Below are positions 25,129 through 43,910 of a stretch of DNA of 64,000 nt, piece by piece. The notes beneath the pieces were generated by a model. It saw only the letters and a program-made list of their open reading frames with translations, had not been told where the DNA came from and did not search any database. Each line of letters begins with the position of its first letter. Within the stretch, counting starts at the first letter, position 1. The position numbers were made by a program, and so were the translations under genes. Origin of the DNA: Acholeplasmataceae bacterium (GTDB lineage: Bacteria; Bacillota_I; Bacilli_A; Acholeplasmatales; Acholeplasmataceae). The stretch spans positions 1-64,000 of the forward strand of contig RECG01000016.1 of NCBI GenBank assembly GCA_007692425.1, written 5' to 3'.

Positions 25129-27453
25129 TCAGGTGGTCTTGACGGTGGTCTCGACCGTATTGAAATGTTGGCTTGCGACCTTGACGGATCCTGTGCCAGG
25201 TTCAACCGCCTTGACCCAAAATGACTGGATGCCACCTTGCATGCTTCTGTGTGCAGGACCGATCAATGTCAGGTTACCGGTGGTTTCAATATGGATGACT
25301 TCCTTGCTGTAATAGGCGCGCTCACCCAGACTGTTGGCCAGTTCGACGGTGATGCGCATGACATCATAGGTCGTTTCAATGTGCATGTCCTTGGCATCTG
25401 TTTTGATCGATAGTTGATAATCGTCATGCTTACCCTTTTGTTCAGTGAGCACTCGTTTGCCTTGTTGATATCCTTCGAAACGCCAGGTTTGTCCCGACTC
25501 GCCCCAGCCACCGATATAGCGGGTATAGAGTTTGACGGCATCTTCATATTTGAGCTTGTATTTGAAGAGAATCCAACCCAGTTTCAGCTTCATGCCAAGC
25601 GACATCTTCAAGTCATTATGCAAGGTTTTCAACATGATGTCCTTGACGGTGTCGGCATCTTTCTTCTTGAACGTCTCGTTGTCGCGGATCAGGTTACCAA
25701 TCAAATCACGGATGATGATGGGCGGATGTGGCAAATGGTGATACAAGGCGTTATCCTTGTTATAGGTTCCAATCAATTGCTCATTTTTATAGAGTTTGAT
25801 CTCATCACAATTGGTCGCAATCATGACTTCTTTGAGCGCACCACCGGGAAGATCGCCAATATGCATCATCGACAAGACTTTCATGTATGGTTTTTCGCCT
25901 TGTGAAGCGTAAACCGAAGCGGCATATTTATCGTTTCGGTTGATATCGAGCACACCATGATGACAGATGTGATCATTGCTGCCGAAATCCTTGTGGGTGT
26001 GGTAATCGTTCATACACCAGCCGATGGCACCCATCAGACCTTTCATCTGATATGCATCATCCAAAACCTTGAAATGGCGATGCGCATGCGTGACTCTTTT
26101 CGTTTCATCATCATATGATTTTGTTGGAAAGACGTGACCATTGTATTCGGTCACCAGATAGGGACTCGATTGTTTGGTCATCTTCTTCTTGGGTGTCAAT
26201 CCTTCGTTGTCGCCATGGTGGACAAAATCATTGACGGTGTAGACATCTTCGTAACGTTTGCTGTGGGCGATGTAACGGACACCACCGGTCGGACGGCTGA
26301 CATCGATACTTTTGGCCAGGTCACGGGTCGCCTGATAAAAGACATCATCATCTGGTGACTCATTGATGCGTGTCCCGATCATGATGACAGACGGATGGTT
26401 GTAGTCACGGATCATCATGGTTTCCAATGACTTGAGCGCATGTGCTTTCCAGGTATCATCACCGATGTGTTGCCAACCGGGAAGTTCGGTGAAGACCAGT
26501 AAACCGATGTCATCACAACGATCAAGAAAATGCCGGCTCGGTGGGTAGTGGGAACTTCTAACGATGTGACAGCCCAGTTCGCGTTTAAGAATATCCGCAT
26601 CTCTGGCTTGTGCTGATTTGGGCATGGCGTATCCGACATAAGGATAAGACTGATGACGGTTCAAACCACGCAAAAAGATTTTTCTGCCATTCAAATATAA
26701 TCCATTTTTGTCGACGGCAATGGTGCGGACACCGAACCTGGTCGAGGCAATGACTTCGTTTTCACACATCAGTTCAGCCTGATACATTTTGGGATTGTCA
26801 ACATCCCACAGCACCAGGTCGTGTGATGTCTTCAAGGTCGCTTTGCCGTTCTCAGCATCAATCCGGAAACGATGATATTCCGTGTCACCTTCTTTGATGA
26901 CAAGGTCCAGAGGTTGCCGGTTTTGGCAACGTCCGTCGATCTCGATGCGGACATTCAATGTCGCGCCATCACCATCAATCAATAAATGTTTGGCAATCAC
27001 AGGACCGGTTTCGATCAGGCTGACTTCACGGTAAATACCACCATAGGTCAGATAATCAATCACACCACCGAACGGAGGATGGTCGCCCGTTTCACGGGAA
27101 TCAACCTTGACGGTCAGAATATTTTGTTCTTTGGCCGACGCTGTCAGTTCGACTTGAAAGGCATCATAGCCACCGATGTGGCCTCCAATATGAGTCCCGT
27201 TCAAATAGATCTCGGCTCTGGCCATCACGCCTTCAAACAACACAAAAAGACGTCTGCCTTTTTCCGGTTTGTAAGTAAATGATTGTTGATAGGTGAAGAT
27301 GCCTTGCGTGATGGTTTCATCGAAATAGCCATCCGCGATTTCCTTGACCGTATGAGGCAGATGCACGGTTTGGCCGGATAGACGCATGTGGGTCCAATCT
27401 TCTTCAAACCCCTTTTGAAAAGACCAATGCATGTTGAGTGGTGTCGTTTTCAT
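25129..27453 (-). CDS. Glycoside hydrolase family 2 protein (beta-galactosidase/beta-glucuronidase type)
   Basis: Predicted cytoplasmic beta-glycosidase of 774 aa with no signal peptide. Domains: jelly-roll sugar-binding (about 1-160; YQQSFTY, GGYDAFQVELT), Ig-like (about 165-260), and TIM barrel (about 265-560) with LRGLNRHQSYPYVG, acid/base Glu in GTRINES and nucleophile Glu in LVTEYNGH; C-terminal beta domains follow. AAAGGAGAGAAGACG supports the start at 27453. It follows the GH31 gene by 40 bases on the same strand. The exact sugar cannot be read from the sequence. Confidence 0.85.
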   Translation of the reverse strand: MKTTPLNMHWSFQKGFEEDWTHMRLSGQTVHLPHTVKEIADGYFDETITQGIFTYQQSFTYKPEKGRRLFVLFEGVMARAEIYLNGTHIGGHIGGYDAFQVELTASAKEQNILTVKVDSRETGDHPPFGGVIDYLTYGGIYREVSLIETGPVIAKHLLIDGDGATLNVRIEIDGRCQNRQPLDLVIKEGDTEYHRFRIDAENGKATLKTSHDLVLWDVDNPKMYQAELMCENEVIASTRFGVRTIAVDKNGLYLNGRKIFLRGLNRHQSYPYVGYAMPKSAQARDADILKRELGCHIVRSSHYPPSRHFLDRCDDIGLLVFTELPGWQHIGDDTWKAHALKSLETMMIRDYNHPSVIMIGTRINESPDDDVFYQATRDLAKSIDVSRPTGGVRYIAHSKRYEDVYTVNDFVHHGDNEGLTPKKKMTKQSSPYLVTEYNGHVFPTKSYDDETKRVTHAHRHFKVLDDAYQMKGLMGAIGWCMNDYHTHKDFGSNDHICHHGVLDINRNDKYAASVYASQGEKPYMKVLSMMHIGDLPGGALKEVMIATNCDEIKLYKNEQLIGTYNKDNALYHHLPHPPIIIRDLIGNLIRDNETFKKKDADTVKDIMLKTLHNDLKMSLGMKLKLGWILFKYKLKYEDAVKLYTRYIGGWGESGQTWRFEGYQQGKRVLTEQKGKHDDYQLSIKTDAKDMHIETTYDVMRITVELANSLGERAYYSKEVIHIETTGNLTLIGPAHRSMQGGIQSFWVKAVEPGTGSVKVASQHFNTVETTVKTT

Positions 27454-27493: not shown

Positions 27494-29464
27494 TCATGTG
27501 ATGGTGATGCTTTCAAACAGTTTGGCGAACGGACTGTTTCGACGGTAGAAGGCGGCTGGCTTGCCCAATGGCACGTCTACGACATGGGTGCCACCACGAT
27601 AAATTTCATGGCTAAGCAAACGAGCCCAGTCACCTTGAGGCAGGGTGACTTCAAGCGCATGTTGCCCTGGTCGATAGGCCGGTGCGACAAGCAGGTCTTG
27701 CCCGAGCATGAACATCCTTTTTTCGGTCCAGGCGAATGATTCGTCACTATGGAAAAACAAAGGACGATTGATGGGGATGCCTTGATCCTGATAAGCTTGT
27801 TTACAGGCTTCCATGTAAGGTCTCAAGCTGATGTAAAGATGGGTCATGGCTGCGAAATGCTTGAGGACTTCAGGAGAATGATCAAATTGACAATTATCTT
27901 CGGGACGGCTGCCTTCATGACAGCGGAAAAGTGGTGTGAAGACATTCATCTCCGCCCAACGCATGAACAACTCGGGTGATCGCTTCATATGAAGGATGGC
28001 GGTGTAACCGCCGATATCACTATGCATCTGGCCGACACCGATGGTTGCCATGCTGAGTGTCGCCGTGATGACCGACGGCAGGCCATAAGCGTCCGAGAAG
28101 TCGACATGCTGGTCACCGGCCCACATCAGGTTGGCATGGGAGATGGTGCCGGTATGACCGGCACGATTGAAGAAAAAGATTTCGTTTTCTTTACCGGTAT
28201 CACGAATCGCCTCTTGATTGAGTCTGGCCCATAAGACAGGCCAGTGATTGTGCCATGCTTCAGCGTCACCACCGTGAATGCAGGCGTCGGTCGGCAGGTA
28301 TTCACCAAAATCAGCCATCCATCCGCTCATGCCAAGGTCAATCATGTGGGTGATGATCAGTTGTTTGTACCAATCATATGCTTTTGGATGACTCAAATCG
28401 ACAATGCCGGCATTGAAGGTGGTGGATTGGATGCGATACGGTTCACCTTGTTTGTCAGTGACCAGATACCCTTGACGACGCGCTTCGTTGTAAAGCGGGA
28501 CATCCTCCTTCAAAAAAGTGTTGATGTACCCAAGAAAACGGATGCCTTCTTCACGCATGCGGGCAATGGCCTCTTTCAACTTTGGATAGAGCGTCTCATC
28601 GACCTGCCAGTTCCAGTATACCTGGCTGCCGAAGGCGGTCTTGAGTTGGCCGGACCAGTCCTGACACCAGATGCCGACGACCTTGATGCCATGTTCCTTG
28701 GCGGTTTTCAGTTTCCTTATGGCTTGATCAAGGCCACCCTGGGTGGCGATGATCGCACCTGTTCCGGTCCAGTCCGGCAAGGGTTGTTGCCGGCCGACGA
28801 GGTCGGACACTTTCATGGCGAGACGACCCATGTCTTGATCAGCCAGGATGGACATGCGCTTAGGCACATCACGAAAATGAATCATCGTCTCTTCCTTCTT
28901 GAACTGAAAAAAGCCGAAAGCCTCGCTATCGACATGAACAACATAACCTTTGCTTGACATGAAGGTGGGTTGGGCGTGATAAGTCTGATGTTCGCGATAA
29001 GGACCGAGATGACCCGGTCGGACACCAAACAGTTTTTCGAATAGAAACTTTTTGATGAATGTCTTGAGCGAGTGATGCTCACTGACCCATACCTTGACTT
29101 TCTTATTTTTCAAATCAAGGTGGGTGAACTGTTCACCACAACCATAAAAACGTTCATCTTCCGTCGACGGCAAGACAAGCCAGAAACGATTCATCGGCAT
29201 GTTGCAGGTCACATCGATATGAACAGGGTCATCTGTGGTGACCTTGAGGGTGACTTCGTATGCATCATTGGCATAGATGAATGTGTCTTGTTGCCGTTCT
29301 TTGAAGAAAAGACGTCTGATCTCCTTGATTTTGTCTCCGGTTGAAAAACTGCCGCGGCGCATGCGATAAGTGGCGCGACCGTTTCCGACAAACAAGGATA
29401 GATCTGCCATGTTGATACGGATGTCTTCCCTGCCTTTGATGATGAGATGGTGATCTTCGAACAT
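27494..29464 (-). CDS. GH31 alpha-glycosidase, sulfoquinovosidase-like but lacking the sulfonate-binding Arg
   Basis: Alpha-glycosidase of 656 aa closest in motif pattern to YihQ-type sulfoquinovosidases. The nucleophile is the Asp in GWMADFGEYLP, and the acid/base is the Asp in WAGDQHVDFS. Compared from memory with E. coli YihQ (Gln262, Gln288, Arg301, Trp304, Tyr508 around the sulfonate), this protein has ATQGG, CQDW, SQVYW and DIGGY: the Arg is replaced by Gln while the others remain. The second GH31 at 41-43 kb keeps the Arg. The substrate is therefore probably not a sulfoquinovoside, or it binds differently. AAGGAGCAACCCT precedes the ATG. It forms an operon with the GH2 gene. Confidence 0.85.
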   Translation of the reverse strand: MFEDHHLIIKGREDIRINMADLSLFVGNGRATYRMRRGSFSTGDKIKEIRRLFFKERQQDTFIYANDAYEVTLKVTTDDPVHIDVTCNMPMNRFWLVLPSTEDERFYGCGEQFTHLDLKNKKVKVWVSEHHSLKTFIKKFLFEKLFGVRPGHLGPYREHQTYHAQPTFMSSKGYVVHVDSEAFGFFQFKKEETMIHFRDVPKRMSILADQDMGRLAMKVSDLVGRQQPLPDWTGTGAIIATQGGLDQAIRKLKTAKEHGIKVVGIWCQDWSGQLKTAFGSQVYWNWQVDETLYPKLKEAIARMREEGIRFLGYINTFLKEDVPLYNEARRQGYLVTDKQGEPYRIQSTTFNAGIVDLSHPKAYDWYKQLIITHMIDLGMSGWMADFGEYLPTDACIHGGDAEAWHNHWPVLWARLNQEAIRDTGKENEIFFFNRAGHTGTISHANLMWAGDQHVDFSDAYGLPSVITATLSMATIGVGQMHSDIGGYTAILHMKRSPELFMRWAEMNVFTPLFRCHEGSRPEDNCQFDHSPEVLKHFAAMTHLYISLRPYMEACKQAYQDQGIPINRPLFFHSDESFAWTEKRMFMLGQDLLVAPAYRPGQHALEVTLPQGDWARLLSHEIYRGGTHVVDVPLGKPAAFYRRNSPFAKLFESITIT

Positions 29465-29493
29465 AGGGTTGCTCCTTATGGTTTCATGCTTTC

Positions 29494-29499
29494 ATTATA
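29494..29499 (-). promoter_or_regulatory. -10 box of the GH31-GH2 operon
   Basis: TATAAT on the minus strand, 30 bases before the GH31 start codon. The -35 region coincides with the T-run of the terminator upstream and is weak. Confidence 0.4.
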
Positions 29500-29514
29500 C
29501 ATGTTCTTGTCTGA

Positions 29515-29548
29515 TGAAAAAAGCCATGATCTTACGATTCATGGCCTT
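29515..29548 (-). terminator. Terminator of the sulfoquinovose operon
   Basis: GCCATGA/TCATGGC stem followed by TTTTTT on the minus strand, right after the acyl-CoA ligase alpha gene. Confidence 0.7.
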
Positions 29549-29552
29549 GCGT

Positions 29553-30440
29553 CTATTTGGTGACACCGAATGATTCCAAAAGCAATCCGACCTCGCGTGG
29601 TCGTTTGGCGACTTTCGCACCCGCTTTTGTCAAGGCTTTGATTTTGTCTTCGACCGAGCCCTTGCCAGCAGTGATGATGGCACCGGCATGGCCCATTTTT
29701 TGTCCTTTTGGTGCGGTCCTGCCACCCAGGAAGGCAACGAGCGGTTTGGTGAAAAGACCATCTTCAATCGCTTCCGCAACCTCTTCTTCCATGGTGCCTC
29801 CCAATTCACCGATGATGACGACCGCCTCGGTGCCTGGGTCGTTTTCATACATCGAGAGGCATTCGGCGAAACGGGTGCCGGGAACCGGATCACCACCGAC
29901 GCCGATCAAGGTCGATACACCGTATCCCCGTTCGACGATCATGGCAGTGACCTCGTTGGTCAACGATCCGCTTCGCGTCATGACACCGATGGTACCGGAA
30001 CGGTAGACGCGTTCGATCCAATGCGGAAAACTGCCCATCATGGCCTCTTTCGGTGTGATGACACCTGATGTGTTGCCGCCGATGACCATGGCGTGATGTT
30101 CCTTTGCAGCCTGACGGATGCGGACCATGTCATGCAGGGGGATGCCATCAGCGATCATGACGATTTTCTTGATGCCGGCATCAAGCGCCTCCATGACGGC
30201 ATCTCTCGTCATGCGGGGTGGGACAAAAAGCATCGAGGCATCAATGTCATGACTGGCGACCGCTCTTCGGACAGAATGATAAACCGGTCTGCCTTCGACC
30301 GTCTGTCCTTCTTTGCCCGGCGTCACGCCACAGACCACTTGCGTGCCGAGTTCAATCATATGTTTGGTCCAGAAGCTGCCTTCCGAACCGGTGATGCCTT
30401 GGACCAGCACACGTGTCTGTTGATCAATGAAAATGCTCAT
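29553..30440 (-). CDS. ADP-forming acyl-CoA ligase, alpha subunit (succinyl-CoA synthetase-like; probable sulfoacetate-CoA ligase)
   Basis: Homologue of succinyl-CoA synthetase alpha, 295 aa. It has a CoA-binding Rossmann domain ([21 protein letters not shown]), the GNTSGVITP region and the phosphohistidine loop [17 protein letters not shown] near residue 245. With the beta subunit it would convert an acyl-CoA, ADP and phosphate to acid, CoA and ATP. Last gene of the sulfosugar operon, next to an acylating aldehyde dehydrogenase, so sulfoacetyl-CoA is the likely substrate (SqwKL-like, from memory of the sulfo-TK pathway). A plain succinyl-CoA synthetase is the alternative, but no other TCA-cycle gene is nearby. 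Its start overlaps the beta gene by 4 bases. Confidence 0.8.
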
Positions 30441-31561
30441 CGGTGTGCCTCCTTGGCCAGTTTGACTGCTTTTTTAACGGCTTCCTCAGTATCAAACAAA
30501 GGTTCGAGACCGGCTTCTTCAAGCATCTTGACCGCTGCCGCTTCATTCGTGCCGCGGATGCAGGTCACGATTGGCCGGTCTGGTTTCAGCTTGCCAATCG
30601 CTTCTACGATGCCTTCCGCCATGACATCTGCTCTCGCGATGGTGCCGAAGGTCACGATTAAAATGACCTTGGAAGGCACTTTGAGACAAATCTCCATGGC
30701 CTTGACGGCTTTTTTATAATTCGGTCCGCCGAATTCCAAGTAGTTGGCGACGGTGCCGCCTTCATCGTGAATCAGGTCATAGACCGTGGTAGTCAGACCG
30801 GCACCGGCACACATCAGACCGATGTCGCCATCAAACTCAATAAAGGGAATGCCGGCTTGCAGCGCTTCGAATTCGGCTTCGGTGCGTACATCTTCCTGGG
30901 TTTGTTCAAAACGGGTCTGGCGGAAAAGTGCGTTGTCATCAATGATCAATTTGCCGTCTCCGGCGATTAAAGCACCGGATGTGTCGACAAACAACGGATT
31001 GATTTCAACCAGTTCGCAATCAAAACCGGTAAATACCTGGTACAGGTTTTGCAGGAGTTGGCTGAAAGCGCGCGCCTGTTTGCCTTCAAAACCCATTTGA
31101 TAAGCGAGATGGTTGGCTTGAAATGACATCAAGCCTTCACGCATGTCAATGGCTTCTGTGATGATTTTATCAGGTTGTTCGACCGCCAACGTCTCGATGT
31201 CGATCCCACCTTCGGCACTGAGGATGAGCAGGGCTGTGGCGTTGACCGGTTCGATGGTGATGGATACATAGATTTCACGGTCGATGTCGATCGCTTTTTC
31301 AACCAAAAGCGAACCGATCTTTTCGGGGCGCTCAAACAGTTCACCCGCTTCATCAAAGGCTTTTTGGCTGTCTTTAGCGAATACGATCAAACCGGCTTTG
31401 CCACGTCCGCCTGCCAATACCTGGGATTTGAGCACACATGGAACACCGATTGTGTTGATGGCATCCTTGACATCGCCGCCACGGTTGACCAAGACGCTGT
31501 CCGGTACCATGATGCCATGTTCCTTGAAAATAGCTTTCGCTTGATATTCGTATAATTTCAT
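30437..31561 (-). CDS. ADP-forming acyl-CoA ligase, beta subunit (succinyl-CoA synthetase-like)
   Basis: Beta partner of 374 aa with an ATP-grasp domain: MKLYEYQAKAIFKEHGI at the N-terminus, VLAGGRGKAGLI, ELVEINPLFVD (Mg2+ site), GDGKLIIDDNA and a C-terminal CoA-ligase domain with NYLEFGGPNYKKAVKAM. The tight overlap with the alpha gene and the aldehyde dehydrogenase 3 bases upstream show one operon. The predicted role is the ATP-yielding last step of sulfoacetate formation. It is slightly shorter than the usual 385-390 aa of succinyl-CoA synthetase beta. Confidence 0.8.
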   Translation of the reverse strand: MKLYEYQAKAIFKEHGIMVPDSVLVNRGGDVKDAINTIGVPCVLKSQVLAGGRGKAGLIVFAKDSQKAFDEAGELFERPEKIGSLLVEKAIDIDREIYVSITIEPVNATALLILSAEGGIDIETLAVEQPDKIITEAIDMREGLMSFQANHLAYQMGFEGKQARAFSQLLQNLYQVFTGFDCELVEINPLFVDTSGALIAGDGKLIIDDNALFRQTRFEQTQEDVRTEAEFEALQAGIPFIEFDGDIGLMCAGAGLTTTVYDLIHDEGGTVANYLEFGGPNYKKAVKAMEICLKVPSKVILIVTFGTIARADVMAEGIVEAIGKLKPDRPIVTCIRGTNEAAAVKMLEEAGLEPLFDTEEAVKKAVKLAKEAHR

Positions 31562-31564: not shown

Positions 31565-32974
31565 TCACTCCTGTCCATAAGACTTGAGCAATTCACCAAA
31601 AATAGCTTGGTCGGTCGGTCGGACTGGATCAAGATATTCGGAAACCCAGGTCACATTGAGAAAATGTTTGTAATAAATGTTTTCGGTCGTGATGTTACCA
31701 CCCCAGCTGCCACAACCCAGAGACACGGTGGACGGCATACCATTGAAGAATGCCCCGCCATTACCGGCTGCCTGGGGTTGGTTGACCAAAATCCGGCTGG
31801 TGCGCATGTGAAGACCGAGTCTTTCCACATAGGATGGATTGAATGTATGAATGCCGCAGGAGTGTCCTGTGCCCACATGATCGGTCAGTCTCTCCAGGAT
31901 GCGATAACCTTGATCAAAACCCTGGTAGAGGTGAAAGGTCAATACCGGCGACAGTTTCTCTTGTGAGAACAGGTCGTTTTCGATTTCTTTGGAACCTTGG
32001 GCCAGAAGCACCCTTGTATCTGCGGGAACCTTGAGTCCGGCATCCGCGGCGATGACCGCTGCCGATTTGGCGATGATGGCGGGATTCAAGGCTTTCTTGC
32101 CATGTTTGTTGGTCACCCACATGTGTGCTTCAAGACGTGTTTGTTCGTCTTTCTCAAGGCGATAAGCGCCGTGTTTTGCCATCGCTGTAAACATCGCATC
32201 AGCCACGGACGCTTCAATGATGATGGCATTTTCACTTGAACATGACGTCGCATGGTCGAAAGCTTTGCTCATCATGATTTTTTCTGCCGCATCTTCAATA
32301 TCCGCATCTTCAGCGATGATCTGGACCGAGTTACCCGGTCCGACGCCATAGGCTGGCTTCCCGGAAGAGTAGGCGGCCTTGACCATCGCACTGCCTCCGG
32401 TGGCAAGAATGACATCCGCCTTTTGCATCAGCAAATTAGTCGATTCCACGGAAGGTTCTTCAATAACCTGAATCAAATCTTCGGGTGCACCGACCTTGCG
32501 TAATCCCTGACGCATGAATTCCACGGCCAGTCCGGAAGCTTTTTTGGATTTGGGGTGTGGGGCGAAAATGACGGCATTCCGTCCTTTTAGAATGGTAATT
32601 GCATTGCTGGCCGGTGTCGCGGTGGGGTTGGTAACAGGTGTCAAGGCAGCGACGACGCCGACCGGTTTGGCATATTTGCTGATCTTTTTGGTTTCATCCC
32701 GTTCAATCAAACCGACCGAGCGGGCATCTTTGATGTCGTTTAAAACACCGAGCACCTTGTTCTTGTGCTTGGTGATCTTGTCTTTGACATTCCCCATGCC
32801 TGTCTCTTCGACCGCGAGCGTGGCCAACGCCTTGATGTTGCTGTCGTTGTAGACTTCCCAACCGACTGCCACACAGACCTTGTCAATCTCCTCCTGGGTG
32901 TAATGGTTGATTTGCTTTTGGGCGATACGGGCCTTGTTGATTAAATTGTCAATGATGGTTTCAGATGATGACAT
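31565..32974 (-). CDS. CoA-acylating aldehyde dehydrogenase (probable sulfoacetaldehyde dehydrogenase)
   Basis: Aldehyde dehydrogenase of 469 aa of the CoA-acylating type. The NAD-binding half has TPVTNPTATPASNAITILKGRNA, the catalytic Cys lies in ATSCSSENAII, and LATGGSAMV and GVGPGNS are family motifs. The same subfamily includes SauS, which turns sulfoacetaldehyde into sulfoacetyl-CoA with NAD(P)+. Its place between the transporter and the ADP-forming ligase supports that substrate; acetaldehyde or propanal are the alternatives. The start at 32974 has AAAGGA 9 bases ahead. There is no microcompartment targeting extension and no shell gene. Confidence 0.8.
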   Translation of the reverse strand: MSSSETIIDNLINKARIAQKQINHYTQEEIDKVCVAVGWEVYNDSNIKALATLAVEETGMGNVKDKITKHKNKVLGVLNDIKDARSVGLIERDETKKISKYAKPVGVVAALTPVTNPTATPASNAITILKGRNAVIFAPHPKSKKASGLAVEFMRQGLRKVGAPEDLIQVIEEPSVESTNLLMQKADVILATGGSAMVKAAYSSGKPAYGVGPGNSVQIIAEDADIEDAAEKIMMSKAFDHATSCSSENAIIIEASVADAMFTAMAKHGAYRLEKDEQTRLEAHMWVTNKHGKKALNPAIIAKSAAVIAADAGLKVPADTRVLLAQGSKEIENDLFSQEKLSPVLTFHLYQGFDQGYRILERLTDHVGTGHSCGIHTFNPSYVERLGLHMRTSRILVNQPQAAGNGGAFFNGMPSTVSLGCGSWGGNITTENIYYKHFLNVTWVSEYLDPVRPTDQAIFGELLKSYGQE

Positions 32975-32988
32975 GTTGATCCGTCCTT

Positions 32989-34233
32989 TCAATCCACGAA
33001 CAGGCCGAGACCGCCTAATAAGCCGAAGATGGCTGTAAACAACACAGCGGCGAAGGCGACGATGAACAGGTCGCGGAACATTTTCTTTTTATCAAGATCT
33101 TCAGGTGTATTGGCCAGTGCCAAGGCACCCATGGTGGAAAAGGGACTCATGGTCGTCATGTGGGAGCCGACCGCGATGGTCACGGTCAGCAACGCCGGTG
33201 ACACCACGTGTCCAAGCGTTTCTGATAGTTGTACGGTTGTCGGAATGAGCGTCGGCATGACCACACCGACTGCCGATGAGAAAATCGACATGACACCGCT
33301 CAGCACCGCCATGACCGGCACGGCAGTCGTGCGGTTCATCAGACGTGCCAGGAAGGTTGTCAGCATGTTGACACCGCCAAGGGCGTCAACGACACTGACC
33401 AGGACAGCCATGCCGCAAATCAAAATGAGCGTGCTCCACGGGATGTTGAGGATGGCTTGGTTCTGGTCTGCGGCCCTGATCAACAATAGGAAAGCCGCAA
33501 TCACAAAGGCGGCAAATCCGACATTGACACCGCTGATGATGACCCAGAGGACGAGTACAAGAATGCTGATGAGTGTGTAAATCTGCATCTTGTCAAAACG
33601 TCCGGGTTTTGGAATCTGATAATGTTCCCCATTGCGTTTCAAACCACCGAGCACCAAATAAATGATGATGGAAAAAAGCGTGATGGTGACGACATTCGTC
33701 AAGTAGATTGAGAAACCCATCTCACCGACACCATGGAGCTTGGCCAGTTCCAAGGCGACAATCCCGTTCGGTGCCAAAGGTGAAAGACCACCGGCGATCG
33801 AACCGAGAATGATGAGGCTGCTGATCATGAGCATGGAGATACCTGTCTGGGATGCGATCAACAAGCCGATGGGCAACAATAACGCACTGGTGGAGATGTT
33901 GCCTGGCCCGATTGAAGCCAACACCAAGGACAAGACATAAAAAATGATGGGGATGAGCATGCGGTTGCCATGACTTTGATAAATCAACGTTCTTGACAAT
34001 TTGTCAAGCGTGCCATTCAATTTGGCAATGCTGAAAAGCAAGGTCACGCCGACCGTTGTGAAAAATAGACGGAGCGGCCAATAACCGATAATGGTATTGA
34101 CGGGAAGACCGCCGATATAATGTCCCAACACAAGGGCAAACACCAGACCGACGATGCCGACGTTGATGTTGGTCCAGAAACCGATAATAATGGCAAGCAC
34201 GATCGCCAACAGCGCGATGAGTTCAAGTGGCAT
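32989..34233 (-). CDS. MatC/dicarboxylate-carrier-like anion transporter (probable sulfonate exporter)
   Basis: Membrane protein of 414 aa with about 11 hydrophobic segments and two repeated halves, each with a Gly/Ser/Pro-rich re-entrant loop (ASIGPGNISTSALLLP; GGLSPLAPNG; IFSSAVGVVMPTLIPT; HMTTMSPFSTMGALAL). This is the pattern of the MatC/ion-transporter superfamily that carries C4-dicarboxylates and similar anions. Importing the sugar is the job of the ABC system in this operon, so this protein probably exports the sulfonate end product. AAGGAG precedes the ATG at 34233. Confidence 0.7.
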   Translation of the reverse strand: MPLELIALLAIVLAIIIGFWTNINVGIVGLVFALVLGHYIGGLPVNTIIGYWPLRLFFTTVGVTLLFSIAKLNGTLDKLSRTLIYQSHGNRMLIPIIFYVLSLVLASIGPGNISTSALLLPIGLLIASQTGISMLMISSLIILGSIAGGLSPLAPNGIVALELAKLHGVGEMGFSIYLTNVVTITLFSIIIYLVLGGLKRNGEHYQIPKPGRFDKMQIYTLISILVLVLWVIISGVNVGFAAFVIAAFLLLIRAADQNQAILNIPWSTLILICGMAVLVSVVDALGGVNMLTTFLARLMNRTTAVPVMAVLSGVMSIFSSAVGVVMPTLIPTTVQLSETLGHVVSPALLTVTIAVGSHMTTMSPFSTMGALALANTPEDLDKKKMFRDLFIVAFAAVLFTAIFGLLGGLGLFVD

Positions 34234-34255
34234 GTTGTTTCTCCTTGGGTGAATG

Positions 34256-34738
34256 TCAGAGGTGGAAGTTCTTTTTCTCCATATCACGGACGATGGTCCG
34301 TGCCTTTTCGAGGTTCTTGGCGCGCCAATCCTCGAGATTTTGCGTGAAGGATGTGTTTAAGAAGACTTTGGCCATCTCGACACCCATGATCGGTGCGATG
34401 ACCCAGCCGCCCATACAAAGGACATTGGCATCATTGATGGCACGGCACTTTTCAGCAGCATAGACGGATTCACACGCGGCTGCATGTACGCCTTCATGTT
34501 TGTTGGCGACAATCGACATGCCCATGCCGGTTCCGCAAATCAAAATGCCCCGTTCATGAACTTTGTCCTGGATGAGACGGGCGCCTTTCATGGCGACTTC
34601 GAAAAACGGCAATGGTGCATCGGGATCGGTTGTCCCGATGTCATCGATCTGATAACCTTGTTCAATGGCCCAGTTTTTGACAGCGTCCTTCAAGGGAAGA
34701 CCGGACAAGTCCGAGCCGATAAAAATCTGTTTTTTCAT
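34256..34738 (-). CDS. RpiB/LacAB-type sugar isomerase (probable 4-deoxy-4-sulfoerythrose isomerase)
   Basis: Isomerase of 160 aa. Family features are IGSDLSGLPLKDAVKNW (where typical RpiB has GSDHAG), the catalytic Cys in ILICGTGMGMSIVANKHEGVHAA, and CRAINDANVLCMGGW. The SDLSG in place of SDHAG is a clear departure from ribose-5-phosphate isomerases and suits a different substrate. Located directly after the split transketolase, it matches SqwI of the sulfo-TK pathway, which interconverts sulfoerythrose and sulfoerythrulose. The start at 34738 overlaps the end of the transketolase gene and is preceded by GAGG. Confidence 0.75.
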   Translation of the reverse strand: MKKQIFIGSDLSGLPLKDAVKNWAIEQGYQIDDIGTTDPDAPLPFFEVAMKGARLIQDKVHERGILICGTGMGMSIVANKHEGVHAAACESVYAAEKCRAINDANVLCMGGWVIAPIMGVEMAKVFLNTSFTQNLEDWRAKNLEKARTIVRDMEKKNFHL

Positions 34739-34746
34739 GGTTTTCC

Positions 34747-35703
34747 TCATTTCTGTTTGTTTTGTTTGGCAGCCAGGACAGCATGGACTGCCACGACGAT
34801 GTTTTTGGCCTTCAGGCCGAATTTTTCCATCAGGAAATCTTTCTTGCCCACTTCGCCGAAATGATCCTTGACGCCGACACGTTGCATCGGCACCGGATGA
34901 TGCTCGACCAGCACTTCGGCAACCGCACTGCCCAAACCATTGATGATGTTGTGGTTTTCAGCTGTGACGACCGCGCCGGTCTTGCGGGCGGCTTCGACGA
35001 TGGCTTCGACGTCAATCGGTTTGATGGTATGGATATTGATGACGGCAGCTTCAATGCCTTCATCTTTGAGCATGGCGACCGCATCCACGGCCTCTTTGAC
35101 CATGATGCCGGTTGCGAAGATGGTGACGTCTTTGCCTTCGATCACGGTTTTGGCCTTACCGAGTTCAAAGGTTGTTCCCTCTTCGAAGATCGGATCGAAC
35201 TCCTGTCTGAGCAGACGGGTGTAGACCGGGCCGACATGATTGATGATCTGTGGAAAGATATTGGCCAGCTGGACGCCGTCGACCGGTTCAAAAATGACCA
35301 TGGTCGGCAAGGTGCGCATCAGTCCGACGTCTTCCATAGACATGTGGGTGCCACCGTTGAGTTGGGCCATGATGCCAGGATCGGATCCTGTCATTTTGAC
35401 ATTGAGTCCGGCATAGGTCACAGACAAGGTGACCTGGTCGAACACCCGCCTGGTGGCGAATGGTGTGAATGTGTGGGTGAAGGGGAGCTTGCCCATGTTG
35501 CTCAAGCCTGCGGCCACGCCGATCATATTGGCTTCCGCCACACCGACATTGACGGTTCTTTCCGGATACTTTTCATAAAAGAGTGTTGTCTTGGCTGCCT
35601 TCATCAGGTCAGCTTCGACAATGACAAGTTCGGGATATTGTTCAGCATAGTGGATCAACAGGTCGACGTAGATGTCGCGCATTTGTCTATTTTTCAGTTC
35701 CAT
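34747..35703 (-). CDS. Transketolase, C-terminal subunit (probable sulfofructose transketolase)
   Basis: Second half of a split transketolase, 318 aa. It has the pyrimidine-binding domain (VEADLMKAAKTTLFYEKYPERTVNVGVAEANMIGVAAGL; HTFTPFATRRVFDQ) and the C-terminal domain (VINIHTIKPIDVEAI; TAENHNIINGLGSAVAEVL). With the N-terminal subunit it should move two-carbon units from 6-deoxy-6-sulfofructose to glyceraldehyde 3-phosphate and again from the sulfoerythrulose, leaving sulfoacetaldehyde (SqwGH role). AAAGGTTGG precedes the ATG, and the gene overlaps its partner by 17 bases. A housekeeping transketolase is the alternative, made less likely by the operon. Confidence 0.8.
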   Translation of the reverse strand: MELKNRQMRDIYVDLLIHYAEQYPELVIVEADLMKAAKTTLFYEKYPERTVNVGVAEANMIGVAAGLSNMGKLPFTHTFTPFATRRVFDQVTLSVTYAGLNVKMTGSDPGIMAQLNGGTHMSMEDVGLMRTLPTMVIFEPVDGVQLANIFPQIINHVGPVYTRLLRQEFDPIFEEGTTFELGKAKTVIEGKDVTIFATGIMVKEAVDAVAMLKDEGIEAAVINIHTIKPIDVEAIVEAARKTGAVVTAENHNIINGLGSAVAEVLVEHHPVPMQRVGVKDHFGEVGKKDFLMEKFGLKAKNIVVAVHAVLAAKQNKQK

Positions 35704-36517
35704 CTCGGTCCAACCTTTCTATGGCTTCCCTGGCCATCTCCATGGTGACGGGCATGTTGTGGGATGCCGGATCGCCTTCACAGAAGAAAGCCCCTTTGCC
35801 TTTGATGGTGTTCATGATGATCATCGAAGGCATCCCTTCGGTCTTCTTCGCAATCTCTATGGCATCAATCAAGGCCATGACATCATGTCCGTCAACCACT
35901 TGGACATGCCAGTTGAAGGCTTCCCACTTCTTGTCAAGCGGGCTGACATCATTGAAAGTTGAGATGTTGCCATCAATCTGCATCTTGTTGTAATCCGTGA
36001 ATGCAATCAGGTGGTCGAGCTTGCGGTTGCCGGCGAACATCGCGGCTTCCCAGATTTGCCCTTCCTGGCTTTCGCCGTCACTGATGATGGCATACACCTT
36101 GAATGGTGCCTTGTCCATCTGGGCGGCCAGCGCCATGCCGACCGCGACTGAAAAGCCTTGACCGAGTGAACCGGTGGTCATGTCAATGCCCGGTGTCTTG
36201 TTTTTGTCCGTATGACTGGGCAGATTGGTGTTGGGTTGATTCAAGGTATTCAAAAGATCAAGGTTGAAATAGCCCTTGAGGGCCAGGGCAGCGTAGACCG
36301 CCGGACCCGCATGTCCTTTGGATAGGACAAAACGGTCACGCATCGGCATGCCGGGGTTCTTGGGGTCAATCTTCATTTGATCGAAATAAAGCACAGCCAG
36401 AATATCCGCGATCGACAGACTGCCGCCGATATGACCGACACCGAGCGTACCGATGGCCTCCAGGGTCAGTTTGCGGATGGTGTTGGCTTGTTTTTCCAAA
36501 TAAGTTCGCTTATCCAT
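35687..36517 (-). CDS. Transketolase, N-terminal subunit (probable sulfofructose transketolase)
   Basis: Thiamine-diphosphate half of the split transketolase, 276 aa. Motifs are GVGHIGGSLSIADILAVLYF, RFVLSKGHAGPAVYAALA, MTTGSLGQGFSVAVGMA and the TPP/Mg2+ motif SDGESQEGQIWEAAMFA...DYNKMQ. The start was moved to 36517: AAGGAG precedes the ATG and it overlaps the isomerase stop by eight bases. Isomerase, two transketolase subunits and RpiB-like protein in immediate succession is the arrangement expected of the sulfo-TK pathway. Confidence 0.82.
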   Translation of the reverse strand: MDKRTYLEKQANTIRKLTLEAIGTLGVGHIGGSLSIADILAVLYFDQMKIDPKNPGMPMRDRFVLSKGHAGPAVYAALALKGYFNLDLLNTLNQPNTNLPSHTDKNKTPGIDMTTGSLGQGFSVAVGMALAAQMDKAPFKVYAIISDGESQEGQIWEAAMFAGNRKLDHLIAFTDYNKMQIDGNISTFNDVSPLDKKWEAFNWHVQVVDGHDVMALIDAIEIAKKTEGMPSMIIMNTIKGKGAFFCEGDPASHNMPVTMEMAREAIERLDRDGTEK

Positions 36518-37868
36518 GTTGTTTGCACTCCTTCGGGGTGATGACCGGCAAACCGAGCATGCCGGCAAGATCAATCAAAGCCTCGCTCACATCATCATAG
36601 AGCACCACGAAATGGGGCTCCCATCCGTCTGTGACGAGCATGTTGATCAGTTTTTCGACCGGGGGACCGACCTTGGCGACCAGGCTGGTGCCGAGAAATT
36701 GTTGTGGTTTATCGAGAATTTCGGCTTTGGCAATGAAGAAACGGAACGTACCGTCCGGCAGACGGCCGACCCTGAACAGGGTGGCTTTCTTCCCTGGTTT
36801 GAGTCCGAATTCCATGGTGGGGCCGATTTGGCGGTTGGGATGGACACCGGTCACCGCGCCAAGATCAGCTCTGGCCAATGAGCAGGCGGCAGTACCGCAA
36901 TGCCAGAATGTAATCGTGTTTTCTGCTTTGTCGATGGAGACCGGGTCACCGAGATAAGTCGGTTTACCCGTCAGGAACTGTCCGATATACATCGACAAGG
37001 CGCCATAGGCATCGGCTTCGCAGGCGGCTGCGACCATCTGGTCGTTGAGCAATCCCAGCACACTGCAGACCGGTGTCCCGTAATCGGTGAAGAAATCCGG
37101 CCAGCACCGTGAAGCGATGGCTTTGATGCCATGTGTCTCCACATAGGTCTTATAAACATGATAGAGTTTGATGAAAGCATCGCGATTTTCCGTGGGAACG
37201 GTATCGAGTCCTTTCATCTTGGTGTGGGCTTCTTGGCTTGCTTTTTCAGCTATATTTAGATCGAGTTGACGGGCCTGTTGGGTCAATTCTCTCGATTCGA
37301 TGGTCAATAACTCCACACCAAAGGTGCGGGCCATTTCGGTGTCGATGGCCTGACCAAAGCCGAAGCCTTGGGGCGGATGACCGATGGAAGCCAGTTTGAG
37401 ATGACGCAAATCAGCCTTGGCCTGGACAGCTTTGACAAATGTCTCCAACGAACTGATGAGTTGAGGATCATCAGGTCCACCGACCAGGTGTTTGATATAT
37501 CCGCCATGACAGGCCTTGAATGCATGGCCGGCTGAAAAAGCGCCCGTCAGCGAATTCAGACGGAGCCTTCCCCCGTCGATGACCGGTTCGGGCAGCGTCC
37601 ACAAAAAGACCGGTGCCTTGCTATGACGGAACACAGCGGTGGCAAAAGCGGCATTGGCGAATGTCACATGTTGCAAAATGATGCCATCGGGATGTGCGGC
37701 TTTGACAAACGTCTCGACATCCTGAGTTGAAAACAGGATGCCTTTAGGATGAATGATATCCGGCACGATTGCCTTGACACATGCCAGGGATGCCTTGAAA
37801 GCGGCTTCGGCGGAAGGCATGTGAAAGGTCGGCACACCAATGGGTACGTATATGATATTGTTTTTCAT
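36510..37868 (-). CDS. L-fucose/L-arabinose-isomerase-like protein (candidate sulfoquinovose isomerase)
   Basis: Protein of 452 aa with the two-part fold of fucose/arabinose isomerases. The N-terminal half has QHVTFANAAFATAVF, APVFLWTLPEPVIDGGRLRLNSLTGAFSAGHA; the C-terminal half has metal-ligand-like residues in CEADAYGALS, LGDPVSID and FWHCGTAACSLA. It is predicted to convert sulfoquinovose to 6-deoxy-6-sulfofructose, the entry step. The cupin-like DUF4867 protein at the operon start is the other candidate for this step. AAAGGAGATTTT supports the start at 37868. It is not a YihS-type (AGE family) isomerase. Confidence 0.75.
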   Translation of the reverse strand: MKNNIIYVPIGVPTFHMPSAEAAFKASLACVKAIVPDIIHPKGILFSTQDVETFVKAAHPDGIILQHVTFANAAFATAVFRHSKAPVFLWTLPEPVIDGGRLRLNSLTGAFSAGHAFKACHGGYIKHLVGGPDDPQLISSLETFVKAVQAKADLRHLKLASIGHPPQGFGFGQAIDTEMARTFGVELLTIESRELTQQARQLDLNIAEKASQEAHTKMKGLDTVPTENRDAFIKLYHVYKTYVETHGIKAIASRCWPDFFTDYGTPVCSVLGLLNDQMVAAACEADAYGALSMYIGQFLTGKPTYLGDPVSIDKAENTITFWHCGTAACSLARADLGAVTGVHPNRQIGPTMEFGLKPGKKATLFRVGRLPDGTFRFFIAKAEILDKPQQFLGTSLVAKVGPPVEKLINMLVTDGWEPHFVVLYDDVSEALIDLAGMLGLPVITPKECKQHG

Positions 37869-37897
37869 AAAATCTCCTTTCAGTTTGCTTTTTGATG

Positions 37898-37917
37898 GCG
37901 TTCTGTCATCAGAACGC
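37898..37917. promoter_or_regulatory. Inverted repeat GCGTTCTG-n4-CAGAACGC before the isomerase gene
   Basis: Perfect 8-bp arms, centred 40 bases upstream of the isomerase start, in the 183-base gap after the binding-protein gene. There is no T-run on the minus strand. It could be an operator or an mRNA-stabilising hairpin that separates the abundant importer part from the catabolic part. Confidence 0.45.
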
Positions 37918-38051
37918 GATGAAAAAACAACCTGACGGCAATGATGAGGTGCCACCGGAACCGGCAGCACCTGTCATCAATGTTCAATGCCGTGATGGCG
38001 TTGATAAGTCAGACATCAACAAGGATGTCCGCTTGGTGTCAAAGTTGACAA

Positions 38052-39272
38052 TTACTCGTCTTCCATGGCAGCCAGGATGGTTGTTTCCAACGCTTCCAAA
38101 ATCGCAAGGGCTGTCATTTCACCTGCACTGGCACGGTTGGTCATCAGGTTGATCATCGGATAGATACCCGGAACCTGTGTCATGAGGAGCCAGTCTGATA
38201 CGAATGAAACCGGGGTGTGATTGATTTCATCCTGGAAGACATCGAGGGCATGTGCCAAGTCGCCAAAGTCGATTTCAGCACCGATACGGGCACTCAGGAA
38301 AGGCACATAATTGTTGTATTCATCATGGTTCTCGGCTTGAGCCAACCAGGTGATGAACGCCTTCGCTTCTTCTTCATTACCGGAATCCTTGAGCGCGCTC
38401 ATGGACTTGCCGCCGAGCACGGTGGCACGTTGTCCTTCAGGACCGGTCGGCATCGGCACGACAGTCCAGTCGAAGTCGAGGTCGGCAGTGTGATATCTGC
38501 CTGCAAACCAGTTGCCTGACATGTGGAAACCGTAACGGCCGCTTTCAAACAATTCAGCTGCGTTGGTCGTGAAGACTTCCTTGCTGATCATACCGTTGTC
38601 ATAGAAGTCGATCAACAGTTGCAGGGCGGCTTGCGCACCTGCGCTGGTCAGGTTGGTATCAGTGAACGCATCTTCCCAGATATGGACGCCATGTTGATAA
38701 ATCAAAGGCATGAAACGATGTCCCTGGAAGTCAAAGAGCCCTGGGTTGGTGACATCATCTTGGCCTCTGAGCTTGTCCATTTCGGTTTCAAATTCCGCCC
38801 ATGTCCAAATGTCTTCATCGCCCAATACCGGATAGTTGACACCATACGCATCGAGCAAATCGAGGTTGACATACAGACCGTTGGCGGTGACATCCATCGG
38901 CAGGCCGATCGGCTTGCCATCAGCATTGTAGAAAATGTTCGTGAAATTGGCTTCCGTGAACACACCGTCAAGTTCGACAAGATGGGTCTTGAAATTATTC
39001 ATGACCCCTTCGGTCGTACGGATCAATGCCGGTTGGTCGCCACCATCAATCATCTGGCCCAGGCGGGTTTCATACTCGTTCCAGCCGATGACCAAAAGTT
39101 CAATCTCGACACCTGTCTCGTCATAGTAACGGTCGAGCAGGGTCTGCATGACTTCACCTTCGATACCATCGCTGAACCACATCATTTCCAACATGACTTC
39201 TTCACGAGGTCCGCATGCCGAGATGACAAACATCGCCATCAACATCATGCTCAAAACAAATAGTTTCTTCAT
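38052..39272 (-). CDS. Sugar ABC transporter substrate-binding lipoprotein
   Basis: Extracytoplasmic solute-binding protein, family 1, of 406 aa. The N-terminal lipoprotein signal peptide MKKLFVLSMMLMAMFVISAC has the lipobox Cys at 20, which anchors it outside the membrane. The mature part has WFSDGIEGEVMQTLLDRYYDETG, the SGRYGFHMSGNWF region and GGKSMSALKDSGNEEEAKAFITWLAQ, typical of maltose-type binding proteins. AAAGGAGGATTT supports the start. With the two permeases it should import sulfoquinovose or sulfoquinovosyl glycerol. The energising ATPase is not in the operon and must be shared (MsmK/MalK type). Confidence 0.88.
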   Translation of the reverse strand: MKKLFVLSMMLMAMFVISACGPREEVMLEMMWFSDGIEGEVMQTLLDRYYDETGVEIELLVIGWNEYETRLGQMIDGGDQPALIRTTEGVMNNFKTHLVELDGVFTEANFTNIFYNADGKPIGLPMDVTANGLYVNLDLLDAYGVNYPVLGDEDIWTWAEFETEMDKLRGQDDVTNPGLFDFQGHRFMPLIYQHGVHIWEDAFTDTNLTSAGAQAALQLLIDFYDNGMISKEVFTTNAAELFESGRYGFHMSGNWFAGRYHTADLDFDWTVVPMPTGPEGQRATVLGGKSMSALKDSGNEEEAKAFITWLAQAENHDEYNNYVPFLSARIGAEIDFGDLAHALDVFQDEINHTPVSFVSDWLLMTQVPGIYPMINLMTNRASAGEMTALAILEALETTILAAMEDE

Positions 39273-39437
39273 AAATCCTCCTTTATTTTTTCTCTCTGTA
39301 ATCAACCTATAACGGGTCCCACCCATTCAATAATCTATTGGTTGCGGCCATCAATGCCGCATCTGAAAATCTTGTCCCTCCTTTGATATAATTTTGCATT
39401 TGTGGGTCCCATGCAAAAACCAATAAAAGCAGTTTTG
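39273..39437. other. Structured gap between permease and binding-protein genes
   Basis: Contains a TTTTGCAT/ATGCAAAA hairpin (39392-39418), two copies of GGGTCCCA (39314, 39404), and on the minus strand an orphan AAAGGAGGGACAAG not followed by a usable ORF. A processing site or attenuator that sets a higher binding-protein level is plausible. Confidence 0.4.
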
Positions 39438-40256
39438 TCAGCCTTTCATGCCAGTTTCCACCGTGCCTTGAACGAAATAACGTTGGAAAATCAGAAAGAC
39501 AATCAACATCGGCACCATTGAGATGGTGGTCATCGCCAGCAGGGAAGACCAGTCTGTCGTGTACTGTCCACCAAGTGTGCTGATGCCAAGTTGCAATGTA
39601 TACAACCTGGGTGAGCGAATGGCAATCAACGGCCAGACATAATCATTCCAGCGCCACATGAACGAGAAGATGGCGATGGTCGCGATGGCGGGTTTGGCGT
39701 TTGGCACGATGATACTGTAGAAAATCCGCCATTCGGATGCGCCATCAATCCGTGCTGATTCGATCAAGTCATCCGGAATGGTTAACAGGAATTGACGCAT
39801 CAGGAAGATGCCTGCAGGCGTCGCGGCCGGGGGAATGATCAATGCCCAAAGCGTGTTATAAAGACCGAAAATGCGGATGATACGGGAAATCGGAATCATG
39901 ATGACTTCAAGCGGCAACATGATGGTCGACAAGATGATGATCAAGATGACCGTGTCACCTTTGAAGCGGAATTTCGCCAAGGCATAACCGGCCATGGTAT
40001 TAATCAAAATAGCCAACGCCGTGCTCGACACGGCCACAATCAATGAGTTGAGAATATAATTTTGGAAACTGCCTAGCTGGGTGACGTGGATGAAGTTTCT
40101 GAGTGTCCAATCTTTGGGAAAGAAGGTCGGAATATGCATCCGCAACTCCGAAGCCGGCTTAAATGAAGAAAAGACGACATAAAGGACCGGCCAAAGAAAG
40201 AATACGACGAGCAGGGCGGCGATGACATAGGTCAGGATCGGCACACGGTTTCTCAT
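39438..40256 (-). CDS. Sugar ABC transporter permease (MalG/UgpE type)
   Basis: Inner-membrane permease of 272 aa with six hydrophobic segments. The EAA-loop that docks the ATPase is ESARIDGASEWRIFYSIIVPNAKPAIATI. The length and the C-terminal FVQGTVETGMKG are typical of the MalG half of CUT1 importers. Its ATG overlaps the stop of the other permease (ATGA), so the two are coupled. Confidence 0.88.
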   Translation of the reverse strand: MRNRVPILTYVIAALLVVFFLWPVLYVVFSSFKPASELRMHIPTFFPKDWTLRNFIHVTQLGSFQNYILNSLIVAVSSTALAILINTMAGYALAKFRFKGDTVILIIILSTIMLPLEVIMIPISRIIRIFGLYNTLWALIIPPAATPAGIFLMRQFLLTIPDDLIESARIDGASEWRIFYSIIVPNAKPAIATIAIFSFMWRWNDYVWPLIAIRSPRLYTLQLGISTLGGQYTTDWSSLLAMTTISMVPMLIVFLIFQRYFVQGTVETGMKG

Positions 40257-41161
40257 ATGGCACCACTCCTTTTCGCCAGATACAGGTTGACACCGGTGAA
40301 AGCCATGACAATGATGATCATCACAACAGACATGGCTGACGCCATGCCGACCTGCCGGAAGGCAAAGGCGGTTTCATAGATATACCTGACAGCGAACTGT
40401 GTCGTATACGTGTTGTTGGCAAATGGTCCTCCGCTCGTAAATGTTTCCACCAACGGATAGATCTTGAAGATCTCCATGCCAGCCAGAATGAACACCATCA
40501 AACGAACAGGGCGCAGTGAAGGATAGGTGATGTACATGAACTTCTGCAGTTTGTTGGCACCATCCATTTCGGCCGCTTCATAAAGAGACACAGGAATGCT
40601 TAACAAGGCCGCCATGAACATGATCATATAATAACCCGCCCTGGACCAGGTGAAGATGAAGACGACGGACCACCAGGCGAATCTCGGATTCAAAAGGGTT
40701 TCAATCCTATTTAAGCCGATCGTTTCAAGAAAACCATTGAGAAAACCCATCGAGTCTCTTAAAATCCAGCGCCACATCAAACCGACGACGATGAAACTGA
40801 TCATGACAGGCCAATAATAGATGGCTCTGACCACGCCACGTGCCCTGAGCGGCTGAACCAGGACGATGGCGAGCAGCAAGGCGAACCAGAAGACAATCGG
40901 CAATGTTGCCGCCACCAACAAGATGGTATTCCAAATGGCTTGGAACAACTCAAAATTGGAAAACAATTCAATGTAATTGGCCAAACCGACATATTGAGGG
41001 GTGTCACCCAGGCCACGGAAACGGGTCAATGAGAAATAGACCCCCATAATGGCCGGTGTGATGATGAAAATCAAAAAGATCAGCATGTTGGGAAGCAAAA
41101 AGAAATAGGGGACGATCTTTTGCTTCATGATGTACCATTTATAAGTCTGTTGCTTTGCCAT
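40253..41161 (-). CDS. Sugar ABC transporter permease (MalF/UgpA type)
   Basis: Permease of 302 aa with six hydrophobic segments, beginning with a basic stretch and YFFLLPNMLIFLIFIITPAIMGVYFSLTRF. The EAA-loop is LYEAAEMDGANKLQKFMYITYPSLRPV. The ATG at 41161 is chosen because AGGAG is 8 bases ahead; the ORF-track start is too close to it. It overlaps the end of the GH31 gene by about 20 bases, which ties glycosidase and importer together. Confidence 0.87.
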   Translation of the reverse strand: MAKQQTYKWYIMKQKIVPYFFLLPNMLIFLIFIITPAIMGVYFSLTRFRGLGDTPQYVGLANYIELFSNFELFQAIWNTILLVAATLPIVFWFALLLAIVLVQPLRARGVVRAIYYWPVMISFIVVGLMWRWILRDSMGFLNGFLETIGLNRIETLLNPRFAWWSVVFIFTWSRAGYYMIMFMAALLSIPVSLYEAAEMDGANKLQKFMYITYPSLRPVRLMVFILAGMEIFKIYPLVETFTSGGPFANNTYTTQFAVRYIYETAFAFRQVGMASAMSVVMIIIVMAFTGVNLYLAKRSGAI

Positions 41162-43184: not shown

Positions 43185-43910
43185 TCAGTAGTTGATCTCG
43201 ATGTTGGGTCCTTTGATTCCGATAATCGCGCCTGATTCAATCGCTTGACGGTTTTCCGGATGGGCCAACAGCCACTTGTTCTTTTTGAACAACCATCGAT
43301 CCTCTTGATGAAGATAAACGGATGCCTTGCTGGTTTCGGTGTTTGTTCCCCAAGGCAGGATGATTGCGGCCTTGAAACCGGCTGGTTCGATCTTGCACGG
43401 GGAGAAATGAAGGGTGCTGCCAAACAATTCCAACACTTGACCGGGTTCGACGTAAACGGCAATCAGTTTGTTTGAATCATACATGTCATCGATGATGTCT
43501 TCCGTCTTGCCCAGCAACAAGACCATGCCGGTGGCGGCGACCACGATTTCTGAAGATTTGTGATATTCCAACGCATTCAAACGGCTGTTGTAACCGTTGA
43601 CATAGCCAATCTGGATCTTCAGATCTCCGAAACATTGGTGTTGGATCAGCGCCATGTCGAGACATGCGGCCAGTTTGGAATCGTGGGGCACATAGCGGTT
43701 GCCTTCTGCCGGCATCGGTACTGCATCAAGCAGATGTTTGATGACTTGTTCGAACGGTTCATGTGTCATCATCCGGCCATATGAACGAAAGCGTTGATCC
43801 GTGAGTGCCATGATGGTGAGATGAGGGTTGAGGGTTGACAGGTATTTGAGCACGGCAGGCCTTCCTTTGAATGGTAGCGTTTTCAACATGATGTCCGATT
43901 TTTCGTCCAT
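43185..43910 (-). CDS. DUF4867-like (cupin/KduI-like) protein at the head of the sulfosugar operon
   Basis: Protein of about 241 aa, recognised as DUF4867-like from its overall pattern: LNPHLTIMALTDQRFRSYGR, LKIQIGYVNGYNSRLNALEYHKSSEI, a central beta-rich part (VAVYVEPGQVLELFGSTLHFSPC) with an HFSPC motif, and LPWGTNT. The fold is probably a double-stranded beta-helix as in KduI or ureidoglycolate lyase, with possible metal ligands in YHKSSE and HFSP. A role as sulfoquinovose isomerase or mutarotase is inferred from position only. The start is uncertain: ATG at 43910 (MDEKSD) or at 43889; neither has a strong ribosome site. Confidence 0.6.
   Translation of the reverse strand: MDEKSDIMLKTLPFKGRPAVLKYLSTLNPHLTIMALTDQRFRSYGRMMTHEPFEQVIKHLLDAVPMPAEGNRYVPHDSKLAACLDMALIQHQCFGDLKIQIGYVNGYNSRLNALEYHKSSEIVVAATGMVLLLGKTEDIIDDMYDSNKLIAVYVEPGQVLELFGSTLHFSPCKIEPAGFKAAIILPWGTNTETSKASVYLHQEDRWLFKKNKWLLAHPENRQAIESGAIIGIKGPNIEINY

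Follow-up and report, generated by a model that had tools for sequence, protein, structure and literature searches.

The window analyzed here is a stretch of 64,000 nucleotides from an Acholeplasmataceae genome, and the features discussed below are listed in Table 1. Two of the genes encode GH31 proteins related to YihQ of Escherichia coli, which differ in the residue aligned with YihQ Arg301 and are referred to as the Gln type and the Arg type. The Arg-type gene lies within the segment from 29553 to 43976, which, judged by its predicted gene products, is a sulfoglycolytic transketolase (sulfo-TK) operon of the sulfoacetate-forming variant; the components of the Acholeplasma-type pathway are all represented, i.e., a sulfoquinovose (SQ) isomerase, a split transketolase, an RpiB-like isomerase, an acylating sulfoacetaldehyde dehydrogenase, and a CoA ligase. 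The Gln-type gene lies between this operon and a GH2 gene. The hairpin and U-run that follow sqwK suggest that it forms a transcription unit separate from the sqw operon; the consensus scan did not list this element. The gene order of the window is repeated, as far as the contig extends, in the genomes G035, G028, G046, G029, and G089, where, unlike in the window, a GPH/MFS_2 symporter directly precedes the Gln-type gene, and two UTRA-type regulators are also found in all of these but G089. A 60%-identical relative of this Acholeplasma partner symporter is encoded on another contig of the window genome (G000:C8:5872-7311). The contig that carries the island also has an IS110-family transposase, at 6962-8128.

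Table 1. Features of the SQ island in the window and of its border
Feature	Position	Strand	Remarks
GH2 protein, nearest solved relative Paracoccus 32d beta-D-galactosidase	25129..27453	-	adjacent by island position
Gln-type (QQQWY) GH31, putative YihQ-like alpha-glycosidase	27494..29464	-	D385, D451, Q281 for Arg301; K139/H130/H453 invariant in the clade
Hairpin then UUUUUU (terminator-like, z = -3.9), then TATAAT-like box	29490..29552	-	between sqwK and the Gln-type gene
SqwKL-like ADP-forming sulfoacetate-CoA ligase (succinyl-CoA ligase alpha 29553-30440, beta 30437-31561)	29553..31561	-	profile match
SqwD-like CoA-acylating sulfoacetaldehyde dehydrogenase	31565..32992	-	SauS model 515 bits, below cutoff 600
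CitMHS/MatC-like transporter, probable sulfonate exporter (role inferred)	32989..34287	-	
SqwI (place in operon order)	34256..34750	-	profile match
SqwGH split transketolase (C half 34747-35703, N half 35687-36574)	34747..36574	-	profile match
SQ isomerase (SftI/SqvD type)	36510..37970	-	383.6 bits, below model cutoff 700
ABC importer (solute-binding protein 38052-39326, permeases 39438-40256 and 40253-41167)	38052..41167	-	
Arg-type (QQRWY) GH31 sulfoquinovosidase paralogue	41139..43172	-	677 aa, 40% identical to the Gln-type protein
DUF4867 (SftX-like) protein	43185..43976	-	far end of the island

The Gln-type gene starts with ATG, has no internal stops, and encodes a protein of 656 aa. Its top match in the PDB is E. 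coli YihQ (5aed; E = 1.7e-159); the next GH31 class follows at E = 1e-37 and the alpha-galactosidase 8j53 at E = 2.9e-10, and the protein is nearer to YihQ than to the GH31 alpha-galactosidase or alpha-glucosidase subfamilies. It scores 705.5 bits with the NCBIfam model for YihQ, NF007746, above the cutoff of 553; this is a whole-protein score that is blind to a single residue. The same model labels both GH31 proteins of the window 'alpha-glucosidase', so that the sulfosugar link is hidden in automatic annotation. The AF2 model of the Gln-type protein has a pLDDT of 94, and each of its 23 best Foldseek matches is a sulfoquinovosidase chain, with YihQ-IFGSQ ranked first.

Arg301 is generally accepted as the hallmark of sulfoquinovosidases, and yihQ serves as a marker gene for sulfolipid degraders. 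The motifs QQRWY and KERWY reportedly stem from the founding paper in ACS Cent. Sci. in 2018; we take the QQRWY residues to have in the present proteins the roles assigned to them in YihQ, with Arg301 presumably binding the sulfonate. In the alignment, the nucleophile Asp405 and the acid/base Asp472 of YihQ correspond to Asp385 and Asp451 of the Gln-type protein, and Gln262, Gln288, Trp304, and Tyr508 are likewise retained (as Gln242, Gln268, Trp284, and Tyr487). Arg301, on the other hand, is aligned with Gln281 in the motif FGSQVYW, so that the set reads QQQWY, while the paralogue has Arg at this position in the motif FGKRLFW. This alignment with characterized GH31 members, which an earlier note on this DNA had proposed, agrees with that note in both respects: the two proteins have the Asp pair and the Gln, Gln, Trp, and Tyr positions in common, and they differ as SQVYW and KRLFW. 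No mention of a change from Arg to Gln at residue 301 was found in the literature searched, to which the 2018 founding paper did not belong.

The natural swap that the note had described within one genome region proved to be real and considerably wider. We aligned 99 distinct sequences, i.e., the window protein, E. coli YihQ (locus L029), and 97 further relatives gathered by a family search and a genome-contig scan. Position 301 is Gln in 74 and Arg in 25 of them, with no other residue, although this ratio is no census because Gln-type sequences served as seeds of the scan. The split tracks the tree, with one Q/R change separating the two groups, which argues that Gln281 is not a chance substitution; from the alignment, Gln at 301 is the fixed mark of a large, uncharacterized enzyme group rather than a quirk of a single gene. 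The Arg group is a single clade (SH-aLRT of 100 in one tree and 85 in another), which is nested among the Gln types in the first tree, whereas the basal fork is open in the second. The order of the two states hinges on the rooting, and Gln could be ancestral; the direction implied by 'Arg replaced by Gln' was dropped for this reason. The Gln group comprises Acholeplasmataceae, Lachnospiraceae, Oscillospiraceae, Erysipelotrichaceae, and one spirochaete, largely from rumen and gut metagenome assemblies, and the sequence patterns tried revealed no relatives on viral contigs. A divergent GH31 protein with the motif FGKRLRWDF and 40% identity to the Arg type (L177:1749-3857) is encoded in a genome that also holds a Gln-type gene and transketolase genes.

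The catalytic and -1 residues are kept in 74/74 or 73/74 of the Gln-type sequences, and several other positions change together with residue 301. His130, Lys139, Thr348, His453, and Asp455 (window numbering) are invariant across the Gln group; their counterparts in the Arg group are Pro/Gln/Ser, Ser/Thr, Gly, Ser/Asn, and Asn/Asp, respectively, and the first four residues are rare or absent there. The loop equivalent to residues 153 to 175 of YihQ, which in the N-domain of GH31 sits at the active-site entrance, has lost its GVG...GG pattern and gained four residues as well as the invariant His and Lys. Furthermore, FGE367-369 of YihQ corresponds to xTT (Glu369 to Thr), Asn/Ser474, which follows the acid/base Asp, corresponds to His, and Lys300 is Tyr in 73% of the group. 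Positive charge is thus gone from residues 300 and 301 and is present instead in the N-domain loop.

The genomic surroundings of the Gln-type genes point to SQ metabolism. The gene lies in a sulfoglycolysis operon in the window and at 55 of the 59 other loci with enough flanking sequence, where at least three core genes are present at 45, one or two at 10, and none at 4. A GPH symporter is found near 45 of 67 loci. In 62 of the 67 genomes searched whole, many of which are incomplete assemblies and of which the first 26 were checked for motifs, the Gln type is the sole YihQ-like gene, and both types are present in the other 5; within the window's own family, the two co-occur in eight genomes. 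The sulfo-transaldolase operons of rumen and gut Firmicutes combine the Gln-type GH31 with a GPH symporter, a transaldolase, an SLA-reductase-like dehydrogenase, DUF4867, a TauE exporter, an SQ isomerase, and a ROK regulator. In Pseudobutyrivibrio ruminis DSM 9787 (L068), the best solved match of the operon transaldolase is the sulfofructose transaldolase 8bc3 (E = 2.7e-80), and the DUF4867 protein matches 9gyy. From these gene contents, the Gln type is the only such glycosidase of the SQ operon, which serves to degrade plant sulfolipid, in many gut and rumen bacteria. Divergent Gln-type copies are located outside the main operon in G024 and G026. In the Gln-type operons L047, L050, L052, L053, and L055, which also contain a transaldolase and DUF4867, the SQ isomerase homologue is divergent (about 26% identical to that of the window), and these operons possibly serve another sulfosugar.

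The GH2 gene more likely starts with the ATG near 27453 that follows GGAGAG, which places the GH2 and GH31 genes without overlap. Relatives of it are present in 31 of 88 family genomes, but no other Gln-type locus found has an adjoining GH2 gene of this kind; in the other Gln-type Acholeplasmataceae genomes with GH2, it is more than 1 Mb off or on a separate contig. A genome of the same genus without a YihQ-like gene (G077) contains photolyase, heliorhodopsin, tocopherol-cyclase-like, and GH2 genes followed by arcC, OTC, and ADI, with a gap of only a few bases between GH2 and arcC. This intact junction argues that the 16.5-kb block from the Gln-type GH31 gene to the DUF4867 gene is an island beside GH2. 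From the loci compared, the pairing of GH2 and GH31 is positional, reflecting an island boundary rather than a conserved partnership. A pair of alpha- and beta-galactosidases (GH31 and GH2) acting on digalactosyl-glycerol was considered and dropped as a main reading in view of the G077 junction without the island and of the other loci without GH2. The heliorhodopsin gene of the window (23229-24059) lies beside the photolyase and tocopherol-cyclase-like genes (21621-25070), a group conserved in G077 (L173). The region 44337-53158 of the window is an arginine/ornithine fermentation cluster (carbamate kinase, ornithine carbamoyltransferase, arginine deiminase, two alanine-racemase-like proteins, a MutL-like protein, and D-ornithine/lysine aminomutase) and is also largely conserved in G077.

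On balance, we favor the view that the Gln type is a retaining GH31 alpha-glycosidase that acts in the cytoplasm as part of the SQ pathway and handles the C6-sulfonate without Arg301. A role in SQ release is the best reading because of the conserved ring-binding residues, the residence in operons, and the sole-copy status, and the Gln group is probably sister to the sulfoquinovosidases of the classical YihQ kind and putatively works like them. It is not filed as a classical sulfoquinovosidase, since Arg301, taken as defining, is missing. An imported alpha-sulfoquinovoside, e.g., sulfoquinovosyl glycerol, would bind with the ring, which has the glucose configuration, positioned as in YihQ, and C1 would be attacked by Asp385 with Asp451 as the acid/base. 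Instead of Arg301, neutral donors (the Gln281 amide, the Trp284 NH, and a Tyr487-bound water) may hold the C6-sulfonate, helped by relocated cations, i.e., Lys139 and His130 of the N-domain loop and His453. The released SQ would enter the transketolase route in the window and the transaldolase route in the rumen relatives. In Acholeplasmataceae, the ABC importer and the Arg-type enzyme would be accompanied by a separate, second module for import and hydrolysis, which consists of the Gln type and, in most cases, a dedicated GPH symporter. Against this view, Arg301 is invariant in 25/25 aligned Arg-type sequences, including E. coli YihQ, and losing its charge should lower the affinity for sulfonate; the four loci without core genes and the copies outside the main operon in G024 and G026 also speak against it, and operons with a Gln-type gene could live on free SQ. 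The literature searched contained no measured activity for Gln-type proteins.

A different specificity inside SQ-degrading cells, directed at a nonsulfonated alpha-glucoside or alpha-galactoside such as the head groups of galactolipids or glucolipids accompanying SQDG, seems unlikely to us. The loss of Arg301 and the presence of two GH31 genes in one island, which suggests two substrates, are consistent with it, as are a GH2 neighbor related to beta-galactosidase and the galactokinase (galK) and GalT (galT) genes of the window genome. However, the residues that we take to bind O2-O4 of the sugar (Asp289, Arg455, His537, Gln262, and Gln288) show no change, and this speaks against a sugar of galacto configuration, although a nonsulfonated alpha-glucoside may still be a substrate. 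The earlier note had likewise suggested a GH2 partner and a nonsulfonated head group; the adjacency exists, but it marks an island boundary, and Gln types elsewhere reside mostly in SQ operons, usually as the sole YihQ-like glycosidase, which leaves this suggestion weakly supported. Specificity for a different SQ conjugate, with an altered aglycone or a substituted or modified sulfosugar and with the +1 subsite and the C6 pocket remodeled together, appears less likely still: the biggest coordinated change is indeed that of the entrance loop with its His, Lys, and 4-residue insertion, and in Acholeplasmataceae the Gln type comes with a symporter of its own and with UTRA regulators, but the Gln-only sulfo-transaldolase operons would then have no enzyme known to act on the common SQ-glycerol. 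That the gene is a decaying or neutral sulfoquinovosidase duplicate that lost a binding residue, as its being a second copy in the island might suggest, is hardly credible given the intact full-length frame, the complete catalytic residues, and the same Gln fixed in about 70 genomes of several phyla, usually as the sole copy.

The Gln clade implies either sulfonate recognition without Arg or the existence of a second substrate. Many complete sulfo-transaldolase operons have it as their only such GH31, and it probably accounts for the largest share of the rumen yihQ variants. In a 2026 amplicon survey of rumen yihQ (PMC13219744), 64% or 47.5% of the variants share a long branch with BK011_07555, one of the two yihQ copies of Mariniplasma MZ-QX (the other is BK011_09290); the survey counts the whole group as YihQ sulfoquinovosidases, and its main text mentions no arginine, active site, or motif. 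Among its rumen genomes, YihQ occurs in 197, SqgA in 6, and both in 2, which is the sole constraint on the presence of GH188 in the Gln-only genomes. The ratio of the two locus numbers (7555/9290 = 0.813) equals that of the positions at which G024, a single-contig genome, carries its Gln- and Arg-type genes (1523675/1875027 = 0.8126), and on this basis we infer the long branch to be the Gln clade. Thus, BK011_07555 probably belongs to the same clade as the window protein, as do probably about half or more (47-64%) of the surveyed rumen variants. The published amplicon (primers named 1201-1526, approximately codons 401 to 509) should not extend to residue 301; it should, however, include a marker that is perfect in the aligned sequences, GD[QN]H for the Gln type and GDQS/GDQN for the Arg type. 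It is a tentative and somewhat doubtful possibility that the clade represents a new GH31 specificity, for another SQ-containing or related glycoside rather than ordinary SQ-glycerol; a large part of the rumen 'yihQ' diversity would then report a substrate other than the one assumed.

All parts of the sulfo-TK variant pathway of Acholeplasma sp. (SqwGH, SqwI, SqwD, and SqwKL; Chu et al. 2023, as described in the review PMC12890257) are found in the window operon, and the passages of the review that were consulted mention no second, Gln-type GH31. Compared with the GH31 sulfoquinovosidases YihQ/SftG (E. coli 5aed/5oht, BmSQase 8r56, E. rectale 6pnr, and A. tumefaciens 5ohs/5ohy), the Gln type has the same fold (TM 0.92, 36-40% identity) and shares the catalytic Asp pair, Gln262, Gln288, Trp304, Tyr508, and the residence in SQ operons, whereas it differs in Gln for Arg301, usually Tyr for Lys300, xTT, the remodeled loop, and the His that follows the acid/base Asp. 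Another sulfoquinovosidase family, which is NAD+ dependent and of unrelated fold, likewise shows a change specific to one clade at a position in contact with the sulfonate; the contact there is a backbone amide, so that binding is kept in the models.
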